Source: Gammaproteobacteria bacterium HGW-Gammaproteobacteria-15
GTDB lineage: Bacteria; Pseudomonadota; Gammaproteobacteria; Enterobacterales; Alteromonadaceae
Assembly: GCA_002840125.1 (NCBI GenBank)
Contig: PGZF01000002.1
Coordinates: 310,001 to 374,000 of the forward strand
DNA length: 64,000 nt
Reading direction: 5' to 3'
Position 1 is the first letter of the stretch; every line of letters starts with the position of its first letter. The notes beneath the pieces are model-generated. The model was not told where the DNA came from. It worked only from the letters and a program-made list of their open reading frames with translations, and made no database searches. The position numbers and the translations under genes were made by a program. Below, piece after piece: positions 17,925 through 22,413 of the stretch.

Positions 17925-18329
17925 ATGAATATGCTGGTAAACATTGATGTTGAGGACCTTGAAAAAGCAGTTCGTTTTTATACAGCCGCGTTCGGTCTGC
18001 GCATTGGCCGTCGCTTTAGCTCTTTTGGCGTAGAAATGCTTGGCAGTTCGGCGCCCATTTATTTACTGGCCAAAGCCGCTGGCACACCCGCAGCGGAAGC
18101 GTTGCCACAATTGCGGGATTACCAGCGCCATTGGACCCCGGTTCATCTGGACTTTGTTGTAGAAGATATTGAAGGCAGTGTTCAGCAGGCTGTTAGCGCC
18201 GGCGCCAGATTAGAGAAACCAATCATGACGCAAAACTGGGGTAAGTTGGCGCCGATGGCAGACCCATTTGGCCACGGCTTCTGCTTTGTGCAATTCCTCG
18301 GCGCGGGTTATGACGAAATCGCGGATTAG
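17925..18329 (+). CDS. VOC (glyoxalase/bleomycin-resistance fold) family protein
   Basis: A 134-residue single-domain protein with two beta-alpha-beta-beta-beta halves: NIDVEDLEKAVRFYTAAFGL at the start and LDFVVEDIEGSVQQAVSAGA in the middle, ending with PMADPFGHGFCFVQF. A metal-binding His may lie in PVHLDFV, and Glu in VEML. Members include glyoxalases, dioxygenases and antibiotic-binding proteins, and the substrate cannot be inferred. It follows yfhL by 22 nt and may end that operon. Confidence 0.75.
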   Translation: MNMLVNIDVEDLEKAVRFYTAAFGLRIGRRFSSFGVEMLGSSAPIYLLAKAAGTPAAEALPQLRDYQRHWTPVHLDFVVEDIEGSVQQAVSAGARLEKPIMTQNWGKLAPMADPFGHGFCFVQFLGAGYDEIAD

Positions 18330-18725
18330 CGGATAGTGCGCATAATGAGAACGTTGTCTGCCAGGACAATTACAGGAATAGGTTTATTTTTCATCGGCCT
18401 CCAATAACGAGGCCGGCAGGCAGGTGCTAATACGGCACGTAATGGGCGGCAAGCAGCAACTGCGGGCTTTTATATTACAGCCGGCAAACTAACGCCTATA
18501 GAATACTTCGCCAAGTACCACTCTGCTTAACCACCAGCGCAAACCAGCGTTATCCAGCCATTCAAGCCCATGCCATTTAAATGCTTGACCAAGTGTGTTT
18601 TTCGGTAAATGTAGCAGTTGGTTTAAGGTTAAAGCGCTTATTTATGCTGAAGCGGAAATGTATGTCAAATCGCAAGATTTTGACCCTCGGTGCTTGCAGT
18701 AGAAACTACTAAAAACGTAGTCGCT
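18330..18725. other. Gene-poor gap before the retron, with possible transposase remnant
   Basis: No intact gene. A CGGCCTC/GAGGCCG inverted repeat lies at 18395-18415 without a T-tract. On the minus strand 18489-18641 stays open and encodes a segment with LPKNTLGQAFKW, reminiscent of the PKSxLGQA stretch near the C-terminus of IS66-type transposases, but the rest does not align by eye and no ATG is present. An ACTAC/GTAGT hairpin lies at 18705-18721. The stretch marks the left edge of the AT-rich retron island. Confidence 0.3.
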
Positions 18726-18754
18726 GAGTTTATACATGGGTGTTGCTTTATAAT
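18726..18754 (+). promoter_or_regulatory. Probable promoter of the retron ncRNA
   Basis: A perfect TATAAT -10 hexamer lies at 18749-18754; the -35 region (about 18726-18731, GAGTTT) is weak. Transcription would start near 18761, about 16 nt before the a1 segment of the ncRNA. Confidence 0.5.
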
Positions 18755-18776
18755 TTTAAACAATCTACTATTCAAA

Positions 18777-18939
18777 AACTCTTTAGCGTTTAGGCTGTTG
18801 TAAATTACTGCCTTGTCCGGCGTTTCGCTAGACACTAAATTATTGAGCACATTTGGGCTGCGTTAGATATTTATCTACCGATCCTTCGTGCCTCACGAGC
18901 GGTAGATAAATATCTAACGCTTCCTCTGAGTAAAGAGTT
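18777..18939 (+). ncRNA. Retron msr-msd non-coding RNA
   Basis: The RNA is bounded by complementary ends a1 AACTCTTTA (18777-18785) and a2 TAAAGAGTT (18931-18939), a perfect 9-bp pairing. Directly after a1 the sequence reads TTAGCG overlapping the a1 end, the same TTAGCG as in Eco1 (Ec86) and supplying the candidate branching guanosine (about 18786). The msr part has two hairpins: 18792-18813 (AGGC/GCCT) and 18814-18834 (TGTC/GACA with an inner GGCG/CGCT). The msd part ends in a long hairpin at 18860-18920. Total length (about 163 nt) and layout match Eco1-like retrons. The reverse transcriptase uses the msd portion as template to make msDNA. Confidence 0.85.
18860..18920 (+). repeat. 21-bp perfect inverted repeat, msd stem of the retron
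   Basis: Arms 18860-18880 and 18900-18920 are exact reverse complements (GCGTTAGATATTTATCTACC... and its complement), separated by 19 nt that can form a further TCGTG-CCT-CACGA stem. Reverse transcription would give a hairpin DNA with almost no unpaired loop. Confidence 0.9.
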
Positions 18940-18946
18940 CACAAAT

Positions 18947-18967
18947 GGGGCAAAAAGCCCCATTTTT
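18947..18967 (+). terminator. Terminator-like hairpin just after the retron ncRNA
   Basis: GGGGC-AAAAA-GCCCC followed by ATTTTT, eight bases after a2. It could end or attenuate the ncRNA transcript before the protein genes. It also shows that the ATG at 18945 is unlikely to be the effector start. Confidence 0.65.
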
Positions 18968-19001
18968 ATGTCAGACATTGCAAGGATGTAGGGGACGTAA
19001 C

Positions 19002-19967
19002 TTGAGTGAAAGGTTTGAAAACACTTTAATTGAAATGTTTGAAAAACTTTCTACTGAAAAATTTAAGGTTAACCTTGAAACTCACCATCTTTTTGTATGC
19101 GGTGGACGTGTTGATGTGAAAGCTGATTTTCCTCAAAGTTTTAGACATCACTTTATATCTTACTCTGCATCGAAATTTCCGTTGATACATGACGCTATAG
19201 TCCAAGCCGAAACTTTCAAAGATTATTTCAAAGAGAATGCTTATCCTGACCTTCTTGTATTTGAAGAGGAGATTGCCAACTTAGCATCACTTGTGATTAT
19301 CTTTTTAGAAAGTCCAGGATCCTTGGTGGAGCTAGGCATGTTCTGTACGAAGCCTGGGTTTTATAGAAAACTTCTTATAGTTGCACCTCAGGAAGAGGTA
19401 AGAGAAGAAGATTCATTTATTTATTTGGGGCCTTTAGAAAATATAAAAAAGAAAGAGCCCACGGCAGTTTCAATTTATCCTTGGCCCAGTTCCAAAAAAG
19501 ACAATTATGATCGAGCGCACCTTGAAGATTTATGCATCACAATAGCTGAGAAATTATCAGCATTACCTAAAAATGTGGAGTTTGATGGAGATAACTCAGG
19601 CCATATAGCGCTGCTTATAACAGAAATTATTAGGATTAATTATCCAATTTTACTGGGTGAAATAGAGTATGCGTTAATAGCACTAAACCTAGATATAAAA
19701 TCATCTGAAGTTGCTAGGCATATTTATCTGCTTGTTAAAATGGAGTTAGTTGATTCAATATTTTACAGTCGTTATAAATATTACTATCCAAGAAAACCTG
19801 CAAACAAGATTTTTTCTTTCGGTAAAAAATCATCTGGTATTGGCTTTGATGAAAGGTCTTTCAGAGTGAAAATGGTGCAATCTTTTGCTTTATCAGATGA
19901 TGAACAGTCTAGAAAGAGGCAAAATGCATTGCGCCAAATATTGCCATTGATAGAAGGTGGTAAGTAA
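19002..19967 (+). CDS. Retron effector: nucleoside deoxyribosyltransferase-like protein with C-terminal winged helix (Eco1/St85 type)
   Basis: About 321 residues. The N-terminal half has the NDT-like pattern of the Eco1 effector: HLFVCGGRVD (about 30-38), a hydrophobic strand LASLVIIFLESPGSLVELGMF (split: LASLVIIF, LESPGSLVELG, about 94-112) whose Glu110 is the likely catalytic residue, then RKLLIV. The C-terminal 130 residues look like a winged helix (AEKL..., SSEVARHIYLLVKMELVDSI). In type II-A retrons this protein is a toxin held inactive by RT-msDNA and released on phage attack; that role is inferred by homology. TTG at 19002 with AGGGG at 18990-18994 is preferred over ATG 18945, which lies in the hairpin. 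The gene is visibly A/T-rich against its neighbours. It overlaps the RT start (TAATG). Confidence 0.85.
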   Translation: MSERFENTLIEMFEKLSTEKFKVNLETHHLFVCGGRVDVKADFPQSFRHHFISYSASKFPLIHDAIVQAETFKDYFKENAYPDLLVFEEEIANLASLVIIFLESPGSLVELGMFCTKPGFYRKLLIVAPQEEVREEDSFIYLGPLENIKKKEPTAVSIYPWPSSKKDNYDRAHLEDLCITIAEKLSALPKNVEFDGDNSGHIALLITEIIRINYPILLGEIEYALIALNLDIKSSEVARHIYLLVKMELVDSIFYSRYKYYYPRKPANKIFSFGKKSSGIGFDERSFRVKMVQSFALSDDEQSRKRQNALRQILPLIEGGK

Positions 19968-20899
19968 TGATAATAAATTACCTATCAGATTCTCTGTTCA
20001 TGTCTAAAGATGATATTGTTAGATTTTCTTTAACTGCGCCGCATCGCTATAAAGTGTATGAAATCCCTAAAAGAAAATCTGGACAAAAAAGAGTTATCGC
20101 CCATCCGTCAAAAGAATTAAAATTCATTCAGAGAAGTTTGATTGATATCCTTAAGCTTTACCTGCCAGTGCATGATGCTGCTTTTGCTTACAGAAAAGGC
20201 ATTGGAATAAAGGAAAACGCAAAGCAACACTTGAATTCTAAGTATTTGCTAAAAATGGATTTTGAAAATTTCTTCCCTAGCATAACTCCAGCGCTATTTT
20301 TTAAAACCCTAGAAGAGCATGGATTTGTGCTCGACGGAGATGATAAGTTAGTTTTAAGTGGCTTACTTTTCTGGAAGAAAAAAGATTTTGATGGTTTGAC
20401 TCTCAGTATTGGCGCACCGACTTCACCATTGGTTTCGAACTCTGTGATGTACCTATTTGATAAGAAAATTAGTGAAATTTGTTTGAGTAGAAAAATTTCT
20501 TATACAAGATATGCGGATGACATAACTTTCTCTACTAACATTAAGAACATTTTATTTGACATTCCTGAACTAGTCTCGAGTGTTTTGAATGAGTTGGTTG
20601 ATGGTGTTAAATTAAATTGTAAAAAAACCATATTCACATCCAAAGCTCATAATAGGCATGTTACTGGCGTTACGCTGACGAATGATGGTAAGTTGTCAAT
20701 TGGTAGAGAAAGGAAGCGTCTAATATCATCTATGATACATCAATCGAAATTTTGTAATTTGACTATGGATGAAGCGTCAAAATTGCTTGGTTTGATATCT
20801 CATGCTGAACATATAGAGCCTGGCTTCCTTAAGAGGATGATTCATAAGTATGGTGAAGAGGTTTTGAATAACATAAAATCTCGAGCAAGTGGAGTTTAG
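19967..20899 (+). CDS. Retron reverse transcriptase
   Basis: A 310-residue RT with every retron hallmark visible: retron-specific NAKQH (NAxxH, residues 84-88) in region X, the palm Asp in LLKMDFENFFPSI, GAPTSP (GxPTSP), the catalytic YADD at 182-185, and VTG (232-234) in region Y, followed by a basic thumb (GRERKRLISSMIHQ) that recognises the msr stem. Full length for the family. It makes the branched msDNA from the upstream RNA. Organisation ncRNA-effector-RT equals Eco1. Start ATG 19967 overlaps the effector stop by one base. Composition is A/T-rich, suggesting horizontal acquisition. Confidence 0.95.
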   Translation: MIINYLSDSLFMSKDDIVRFSLTAPHRYKVYEIPKRKSGQKRVIAHPSKELKFIQRSLIDILKLYLPVHDAAFAYRKGIGIKENAKQHLNSKYLLKMDFENFFPSITPALFFKTLEEHGFVLDGDDKLVLSGLLFWKKKDFDGLTLSIGAPTSPLVSNSVMYLFDKKISEICLSRKISYTRYADDITFSTNIKNILFDIPELVSSVLNELVDGVKLNCKKTIFTSKAHNRHVTGVTLTNDGKLSIGRERKRLISSMIHQSKFCNLTMDEASKLLGLISHAEHIEPGFLKRMIHKYGEEVLNNIKSRASGV

Positions 20900-20945
20900 T
20901 ATTGCCGCGCTCTGAGTGTTTCAGCCACGGGTATTTTCCGTTAAC

Positions 20946-20999
20946 TTAATCCAACACCACTACCTTAATCTGCGCATATACCTGTTGGCCAACCTGGAA
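20946..20999 (-). pseudogene. Orphan copy of the modC 3' end
   Basis: On the minus strand this stretch encodes QVGQQVYAQIKVVVLD and a stop, matching the end of the intact modC (QVGQQVYAQIKAVALD) about 360 bp away. Over about 54 nt there are seven differences, so it is an old or foreign duplicate rather than a recent one. It lies immediately after the retron RT, as if the island had been inserted or exchanged at the modC tail. Confidence 0.75.
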
Positions 21000-21091
21000 A
21001 ACGCAGGGGGCAGGTCAGATTTTGCCAATCAACAAAAAAAGATACGACGCGGAGACGCTCAGCACTACCTTTTGAATGTGCGGCGAATATA

Positions 21092-21283
21092 TTAAACAAA
21101 CATCGCTGCTGGTATACCAACCCGCTTGGACAATGCCCGGATATGGCCGAGCGTTAGCGAGCGCTTGCCGCTGAGTATTTTCGATACCAGCGATTTACCG
21201 CCGCTCTCTTGCTGAAAATCATTTAACGTAAGATCATGCTGGTCTATCAGCCGCTGCAGCATGGCTATGTCTGGAACTGAGGT
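21092..21283 (-). pseudogene. Truncated HigA-type antitoxin
   Basis: Minus-strand frame closed upstream by an in-frame TAA at 21284-21286. It encodes the C-terminal half of an XRE-family HigA-like antitoxin: MLQRLIDQHDLTLNDF, GGKSLVSKILSGKRSLTLGH and IRALSKRVGIPAAMFV. A complete HigA is roughly twice as long, and no HigB toxin is seen on either side. It is interpreted as the remains of a toxin-antitoxin module in the same variable spot as the retron. The flanking DNA 20900-21303 holds nothing else recognisable apart from the modC-tail copy. Confidence 0.65.
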
Positions 21284-21303
21284 TTACAAATAGTAAACTG
21301 CCG

Positions 21304-22413
21304 TTAATCCAACGCCACTGCTTTAATCTGCGCATACACCTGCTGGCCTACCTGCAACCCCAGTCGCTCTGCCGATTGCTTGGTTAGCAATGCCTGCAGT
21401 GGTTGGCCATCCAGTTGTAGTTGTACCAGGGTTTCGGCTGGGTGGGTGGCGCTGTTAAAACCGCTGATGCTGACTTGCAACTGATTGCTGACTGAGCTGT
21501 CGGTTAGCGGCGTGAGGCTTAGCGCCACATCGCGGGCCTGAATGCGTAAGCGGTATGCTGCCTGAGTGCTGGCGCTGCTGCTTAGCGGTGCCGGTAGTTG
21601 TAACTGCTGCTTGCCAATACTCAGTTGTAAAAGATGGTTGTTACAGCCATGGCTTTTGGCATACAACAGTGACATAGCGCCGATTGCAGCAAGTTGTGGC
21701 TGCAGCAATTGCTGTGGCAGCGGGCCCTGGCTGATAATGCGGCCTTCTTGCATCAGCACCAGCTGATCGGCCAGTTTAACAACATCATCTAACTGATGGC
21801 TTACCAGCAGCATAGGAATGCCGGTTTGATTAGCGATACGCTGTAAAAACGGCAGAATGTCGTTGCGGCTTTGCTGATCCAATGACGCCAACGGCTCATC
21901 TAACAGCAGTAACTGCGGCTGGCTAAGCAAAGCCCGGCCCAGGGCGATACGCTGGCGCTGGCCGCCGGACAGATTTTCCGGCGCTTGCTGCAGTAAGGGC
22001 GTTAATTCGAGCAGTTGGATCACCTGTTCGGGCTGCAGCTGTATCGGACTATACTTTGCCCGGCGGTTAAAACCGTATAACAGGTTTTGCGCCACCGATA
22101 AGTGCGGCAGTAAGCTGCTGTGCTGAAATACCATACCGATACGGCGCTGATGCACCGGTATAAAGTGATTGCCTTGTTGCCCAGCGCTACTTTGCCCAAG
22201 GCTACTTTGGCAACCGCCGCTTTGCCAAATAGTATCGCCAAAGCGGATATTGGCACCTGGGTGGCGGTCCAGCCCGGCAATGGCGCGCAGCAGCGTGGTT
22301 TTGCCACAGCCGGAGCGGCCAAATAACGCCGTAACGCCTTGCAGCGGCAGGCTGTGATCAACTGCCATGCTAAAAGCGCCGCGTGTCAGCTGTAGCTGCA
22401 AAGATAACGTCAC
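21304..22413 (-). CDS. modC: Molybdate ABC transporter ATP-binding protein ModC
   Basis: ATPase that drives molybdate import. 369 residues: Walker A GRSGCGKTTLL (about 32-42), signature LSGGQRQRIALGRALL, Walker B LLLLDEPLASLD and switch His in LLVSHQLDDV, then a C-terminal TOBE/Mop-like domain (about 290-365) that binds oxyanion. An insertion near residues 65-80 (SGGCQSSLGQSSAGQQGNHF) is not typical. It overlaps modB by 4 nt (ATGA), last gene of the moaA-to-modC operon. Confidence 0.95.
   Translation of the reverse strand: MTLSLQLQLTRGAFSMAVDHSLPLQGVTALFGRSGCGKTTLLRAIAGLDRHPGANIRFGDTIWQSGGCQSSLGQSSAGQQGNHFIPVHQRRIGMVFQHSSLLPHLSVAQNLLYGFNRRAKYSPIQLQPEQVIQLLELTPLLQQAPENLSGGQRQRIALGRALLSQPQLLLLDEPLASLDQQSRNDILPFLQRIANQTGIPMLLVSHQLDDVVKLADQLVLMQEGRIISQGPLPQQLLQPQLAAIGAMSLLYAKSHGCNNHLLQLSIGKQQLQLPAPLSSSASTQAAYRLRIQARDVALSLTPLTDSSVSNQLQVSISGFNSATHPAETLVQLQLDGQPLQALLTKQSAERLGLQVGQQVYAQIKAVALD

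Follow-up and report, generated by a model that had tools for sequence, protein, structure and literature searches.

Which kind of retron lies beside the modC tail in Gammaproteobacteria bacterium HGW-Gammaproteobacteria-15, how it came to be there, and what its multicopy single-stranded DNA (msDNA) might sense are the questions raised by positions 18777-20899 of a 64,000-nucleotide stretch of this genome (hereafter the window; contig PGZF01000002.1, positions 310,001 to 374,000 of the forward strand). The analysis described below indicates that the locus is very probably a complete retron of type II-A (St85 branch) that sits as cargo at the modC 3' end and forms a tripartite abortive-infection system. 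The retron is intact, its parts follow the order non-coding RNA (ncRNA), effector gene, reverse transcriptase (RT) gene, and every element lies where a preliminary description, made from the sequence alone, had placed it. That description had listed the order of the parts, the 9-bp a1/a2 ends of the ncRNA, the ESPGSLVELG motif of the effector and the NAKQH, YADD and VTG motifs of the RT, all of which were found; its call of a complete type II-A retron is supported.

The ncRNA (18777-18939) folds with a predicted energy of -62.5 kcal/mol (z = -6.2), which was equalled by none of 200 shuffled sequences. It is covered by two Rfam families, msr (RF00170, 61.5 bits) being followed by STnc400 (RF02058), which matches 18853-18977 at 88.8 bits with a gathering score of 80. 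The two msd arms form an inverted repeat with 96% complementarity and, folded as DNA, give z = -8.4. The guanosine at 18786, directly after a1, is presumably the branching one, a position taken over from known retrons. The msr and STnc400 families were adjacent, at E 0.1 or better and in several cases below the gathering scores, in 14 of 16 scanned St85-like loci (L013 and L092 counted once), the exceptions being L128 (STnc400 only) and L010 (msr only). The preliminary description had regarded the ncRNA sequence as new; this did not hold, since both Rfam thresholds are passed and the ncRNAs of Bowmanella pacifica and Shewanella aestuarii share 92.6% and 92.0% identity with it, respectively.

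Constraint on the RNA was assessed in an alignment of 18 ncRNAs, the window's among them, with the structure taken from the window sequence. In this alignment 85.9% of the cells were paired, 31 of the 50 pairs had changed on both sides, and 98 cells were double-changed; none of 500 shuffles matched the paired share, the number of both-side pairs or the number of double-changed cells, and shifting the partner by 1 to 3 columns lowered pairing to 37-48%. Double changes occurred at 20 of the 24 msd stem pairs. The Hahella ncRNA (L010), whose msd arms are unpaired, was retained in the alignment.

The effector scores 238 bits with the NCBIfam St85 effector model (NF038232, cut-off 100) and 288 bits with PADLOC NDT_II-A. 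Its start is probably the TTG at 19002 and not the ATG at 18945 that opens the longest open reading frame (ORF), because no possible start precedes the equivalent TTG in the relatives L157 and L158. Its stop codon and the RT start codon share one base. The predicted structure resembles the NDT/winged-helix effector of Ec86, E110 being aligned with Ec86 E106 (VIA-align). Mean pLDDT (predicted local distance difference test) was 69.6 for the best of five models and 48 or below for the other four; this counts against the structural assignment and makes the fold match supportive only. From these models, an NDT/winged-helix fold is suggested with moderate confidence.

With the NCBIfam St85 RT model (NF038233, cut-off 235) the RT scores 337 bits, so that both proteins, for which profile searches had been proposed as a check in the preliminary description, exceed the St85 cut-offs. 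The same description had considered an RT outside the retron clade, for instance a group II intron-like one, as a refuting outcome; this did not occur, and a group II intron RT is ruled out by the score of the maturase model (47.8 bits, cut-off 300). Its label of Eco1/St85 stood in the St85 half and failed in the Eco1 half, the RT matching the Ec86 RT at 98.8 bits.

Placement within the retrons was less straightforward. PADLOC RT_I-A (416 bits) scored slightly above RT_II-A (400 bits), and the best solved RT relatives are those of Ec78 (283 bits) and Ec83 (256 bits). The first of these results weighs against a type II-A assignment, and both speak for a recombinant, in which the PtuAB effector of a type I-A (Ec78/Ec83-like) retron would have been swapped for an NDT effector. 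However, in a 41-row RT tree, in which L006 (RT cut by the contig end) and L010 (no RT on the contig) are not included, the window RT groups with the NDT-associated RTs of B. pacifica and S. aestuarii with a support of 100/99, whereas the 11 PtuAB-associated RTs constitute one separate branch (93/95, just under the strong mark of the tool). Moreover, the msd tip (GATCCTTCGTGCCTC) matches that of the NDT clade, while several PtuAB retrons carry the CTCGTTCCTCC kind instead, and genes for the PtuA ATPase and PtuB HNH protein are not present downstream of the RT, where a modC-tail remnant and then modC are found. Since the tree resolves the I-A and II-A scores, the locus is assigned to the St85 branch of type II-A and is not Eco1-like; the tree and the effector together rule out a type I-A reading, and the locus is probably not recombinant, the effector swap being extremely unlikely. 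With midpoint rooting, which serves for drawing only, the PtuAB branch is nested in the NDT set, which would mean one effector switch, from NDT to PtuAB.

Two further alternatives concern the state of the retron and its carriage. The reading frames might be intact in a retron that is decaying and no longer makes active msDNA or effector: a sigma-70 consensus scan called no promoter upstream of the ncRNA, an ACGAG change at the msd tip weakens the apical pairing compared with close relatives, and the flanks contain gene remnants. Against this, both frames are open with all motifs kept, the a1/a2 helix is perfect, the msd arms remain almost fully complementary, and Alteromonas flava (L014) has the same ACGAG tip. 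Decay is improbable on this evidence, and the open frames, conserved catalytic motifs and constrained RNA make a functional system likely. The retron could also be a chromosomal integron cassette and not have been inserted by other means, given that an integrase above the curated cut-off is encoded in 28 of 31 genus genomes, including this one (C1:415559-416506), and that the modC end is a cargo site. On the other hand, no attC-like site was found on either strand of window positions 18201-21500 at 6 of 7 core bases, by a scan insensitive enough to yield one site in 16.6 kb beside the integrase; the integrase gene is on a different contig, in a region not matched by the repeats that flank the retron. 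Carriage as a cassette is very unlikely.

Table 1. Parts of the retron and features of its flanks (window positions).
Feature	Position	Strand	Remarks
a1 repeat, ncRNA 5' end	18777-18785	+	AACTCTTTA; 9 perfect pairs with 18931-18939; both-side changes at 5 of 9 helix 1 pairs
msr RNA	18778-18851	+	Rfam RF00170, 61.5 bits (gathering score 52)
msd, template for msDNA of roughly 80 nt	18850-18930	+	24-nt arms 18860-18883 and 18897-18920; msDNA ends putative
GATC, 5' arm of msd hairpin tip	18880-18883	+	faces GAGC 18897-18900 (mismatch); candidate methylation-sensor site
a2 repeat, ncRNA 3' end	18931-18939	+	TAAAGAGTT; pairs with a1
GC-rich hairpin followed by T run, just 3' of a2	18945-18969	+	terminator-like by eye, not called by a consensus terminator scan; inside the STnc400 match, which reaches 18977
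Effector of the St85 family (N-terminal domain NDT-like, C-terminal part winged-helix)	19002-19967	+	TTG start (probable)
Retron RT, 310 aa	19967-20899	+	NAKQH, YADD, VTG; profile scores, tree, motif alignment
Flank outside the retron: intergenic repeat dispersed in the genus	18408-18687	+	also between cargo genes in relatives
Flank: truncated modC 3' end copy, 54 bp	20946-20999	-	87% identical to 21304-21357
Flank: open remnant, about 63 codons, helix-turn-helix (HTH)-antitoxin-like C-terminal part	21092-21283	-	named by eye; copies in five relatives

The retron is A/T-rich against its surroundings, as had been noted before: its GC content is 0.356, compared with 0.493 for the window, of which it is the GC minimum, and the lowest-GC stretch of retron length (0.353, sampled every 100 bases) starts at 18701. 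A relative of the effector is encoded in one of 12 searched genus genomes (this one) and in 8 of 246 family genomes, and the effector family occurs in 12 of 295 genomes of the order. Because of the GC minimum, the single genus genome and the position of the nearest relatives in other genera, horizontal gain from another bacterium, also proposed in the preliminary description, is well supported by these sequence comparisons. Elsewhere in the genus, 20 stretches from 18 other genomes, each surrounding modC or a copy of its tail, gave no NDT or RT match; two of the stretches end shortly past modC (L072 at 319 bases, L080 at 118).

The right-hand neighbour of the retron is the modC tail (21304), in agreement with the preliminary description, the two being separated by the 54-bp modC-end copy and the HTH-antitoxin-like remnant. 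In four relatives (L065, L069, L070, L074) a gap of 12 to 161 bases separates the modC stop from the end of a ferredoxin match, which we take as the empty state of the site. In other relatives the modC 3' end is occupied by different cargo, including a Schlafen/AlbA_2 protein gene (L063), HipA (L068) or genes for Mrr-STAND and PDC-S31 proteins (L071), and in G253 AbiE genes are found about 2 kb away from a displaced modC tail (L078). Across the genus, the cargo at the modC 3' end varies and includes defence or toxin-antitoxin genes. No integrase was noticed among the ORFs listed at L063, L068 and L071, with ten proteins per scan tested in two scans. Copies of the HTH-antitoxin-like remnant were found at L072, L067, L078, L062 and L068 by six-frame translation and blastn.

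Partial copies of the modC 3' end occur at cargo sites in the window (20946-20999) and in two relatives (L078:4107-4565 and L079:4572-4793), as if modC tails traveled with, or remained after, the cargo inserted there. The dispersed repeat, 200-280 nt long, is represented in the genome by two near-full copies, the one upstream of the retron (18408-18687) and one at C2:171622-171857 (86%), and by two fragments.

No integrase gene was seen in the ORF list of the retron locus, and carriage by a prophage or plasmid was rejected, no phage or plasmid genes having been seen beside the retron. Relatives of the effector with about 30% identity are present in Pf-type Pseudomonas phages (four phage records matched), and a St85-like retron is carried on a Vibrio plasmid. 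At the DNA level, matches to the locus in plasmids and phages were single and partial; 27 of 5,426 E. coli genomes yielded a DNA match, none covering 80%, and a search of viral_contigs with the effector gave no match. The E. coli St85-family retrons L128, L129 and L143 adjoin phage polarity suppression and ogr/Delta genes or an integrase, a neighborhood that resembles a P4-type satellite.

Among known systems, St85 itself (Retron-Sen2, Salmonella, type II-A) has the same ncRNA-effector-RT order, the same msr and STnc400 families and the same NCBIfam effector and RT models. The St85 msDNA stem is without a mismatch according to PMC4569332, and both arms of the STnc400 consensus contain GATC, whereas the window ncRNA has it in one arm only. 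The E. coli representative L127 shares 53% identity with the window retron in the effector and 56% in the RT. Closer are the retrons of B. pacifica (L003/L012; effector 73%, RT 67%) and S. aestuarii (L004/L085; effector 71%, RT 70%), both sitting among other genes than the window retron. Directly upstream of the related retron in S. aestuarii there is a tyrosine-recombinase-like gene (L158:4259-5671, named by eye). Ec86 (Retron-Eco1) shares with the window retron an NDT effector and an RT, a predicted NDT/winged-helix fold and the glutamate at E106, but its RT belongs to a different II-A branch. Ec78 and Ec83 (type I-A, PtuAB) have a related RT and the msr family; they differ in their PtuA/PtuB-type effectors, encoded downstream of the RT, and in the msd tip.

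By analogy with such systems, we infer that the ncRNA would fold and the RT, priming from the branching guanosine beside a1, would copy the msd into a hairpin msDNA, and that RT, msDNA and the NDT/winged-helix effector would form an inactive complex. A phage enzyme altering or removing the msDNA would free the effector, which would probably destroy NAD+ (or a related nucleotide) and thereby stop growth. The likeliest trigger would be methylation of the hairpin-tip GATC by a DNA adenine methylase of the phage. According to PMC12548924, escape mutations for Retron-Asa1 and Retron-Squ1, both II-A, fall in a phage GATC-specific adenine methylase, both ncRNAs contain GATC, and the native Squ1 host grows less when it expresses the methylase, though only if the retron is present; these two retrons resemble that of the window in their type and in having GATC in the ncRNA. 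For Ec86, the activating enzyme is described as a Dcm-like phage methylase that acts on the msDNA, and NAD+ is depleted (PMC12409349 and PMC13158370). Two observations weigh against this trigger: Asa1 also needs a phage glycosidase (PMC12548924), and for Sen2, which gives the branch its name, msDNA degradation by a phage exonuclease is reported to be the activating event (PMC12409349 and PMC13158370). The trigger may therefore not be methylation.

The tip itself was compared across relatives. Judged by tetranucleotide, GATC is present at the tip in 13 of the 18 ncRNA rows. It stands opposite GAGC in nine rows (in the 5' arm in eight and in the 3' arm in ShewOnc), opposite GTTC in two (G009, G140), and in both arms in two. 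Thus, 11 of the 18 ncRNAs, the window's included, have a one-armed tip GATC with a mismatch inside; in these 11 of the 13 tip-GATC rows GATC is confined to one arm, giving a single strand with a methylatable adenine and a mismatch within the tetranucleotide. The weakest pair of the msd stem is that of the GATC adenine of the window (columns 155/180): 11 of the 18 rows do not pair there, compared with five at the next weakest. These 11 rows comprise eight with A opposite G, one with U opposite U (G009) and two (G140, G289) that reflect the register chosen by the aligner, which shifted them at the tip; the count at this pair is therefore inexact, and is about nine without both rows. Read directly, the msd stem of G289 is fully paired. 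E. coli L143, outside the alignment, has GATC in both arms.

In a later check of 12 new effector loci (L159-L164, L165-L170), seven without a readable ncRNA were set aside, and all five with a readable msr and msd had GATC against GAGC in the other arm; three of the five are 96-100% identical to earlier rows, so that L166 and L168 alone constitute new evidence. Readable hairpins were found in 7 of 11 PtuAB loci, two of them with GATC, and in three more distant NDT loci (L086, L097, L100), none of them with GATC.

Since a phage GATC methylase triggers Asa1 and Squ1, the tip GATC is the likely sensor. A more specific proposal, which we consider unlikely as a whole, is that the msDNA tip of the St85 branch is a dedicated DNA-methylation sensor, in which GATC on one strand with an internal mismatch leaves one adenine methylatable; the mismatch would set the threshold, host Dam would mostly spare the tip, a phage adenine methylase would fire the sensor, and a change of tip would have accompanied the switch of related RTs to PtuAB effectors. 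Three findings weigh against methylation of the tip GATC as the trigger in general. The tip GATC is missing in 5 of the 18 ncRNAs. The window has ACGAG at the tip where close relatives have AGGAG; in the predicted fold this change opens the GATC pairing and puts most of the window GATC in an internal loop, as RNA and as DNA alike. Dam is encoded in the window's genome (305 bits, cut-off 114.85), and host methylation is something that a sensor built on GATC would have to withstand. Two findings weigh against the more specific proposal. The fully paired GATC of E. coli L127 and L143, whose hosts are expected to have Dam, indicates that a mismatch is not required for coexistence with this enzyme. 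Moreover, msd stems generally hold mismatched or wobble pairs (PMC6868368, a review), hence a mismatch as such is not unusual. According to the same review, msDNAs with mismatched stems probably sequester MutS if overproduced.

The window retron is an intact and ordinary one of the St85 type, one more member of a described type, and its use is comparative, alongside its relatives. The lower msd stem varies freely with compensation and the tip is more conserved, with the one-armed, mismatched GATC recurring in 11 of the 18 ncRNAs and a different tip in the PtuAB sister branch. With this pattern, what retron msDNA senses becomes testable by simple tip and methylase experiments, and the tip mismatch is a modest comparative lead.

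The genome also contains a second retron-type RT near a type I restriction gene (C5:35619-36410; L096:5596-6720, minus strand). A scan of L096 for RNA families gave no match at E 0.1; the RT scores 455.6 bits with PADLOC RT_IX.
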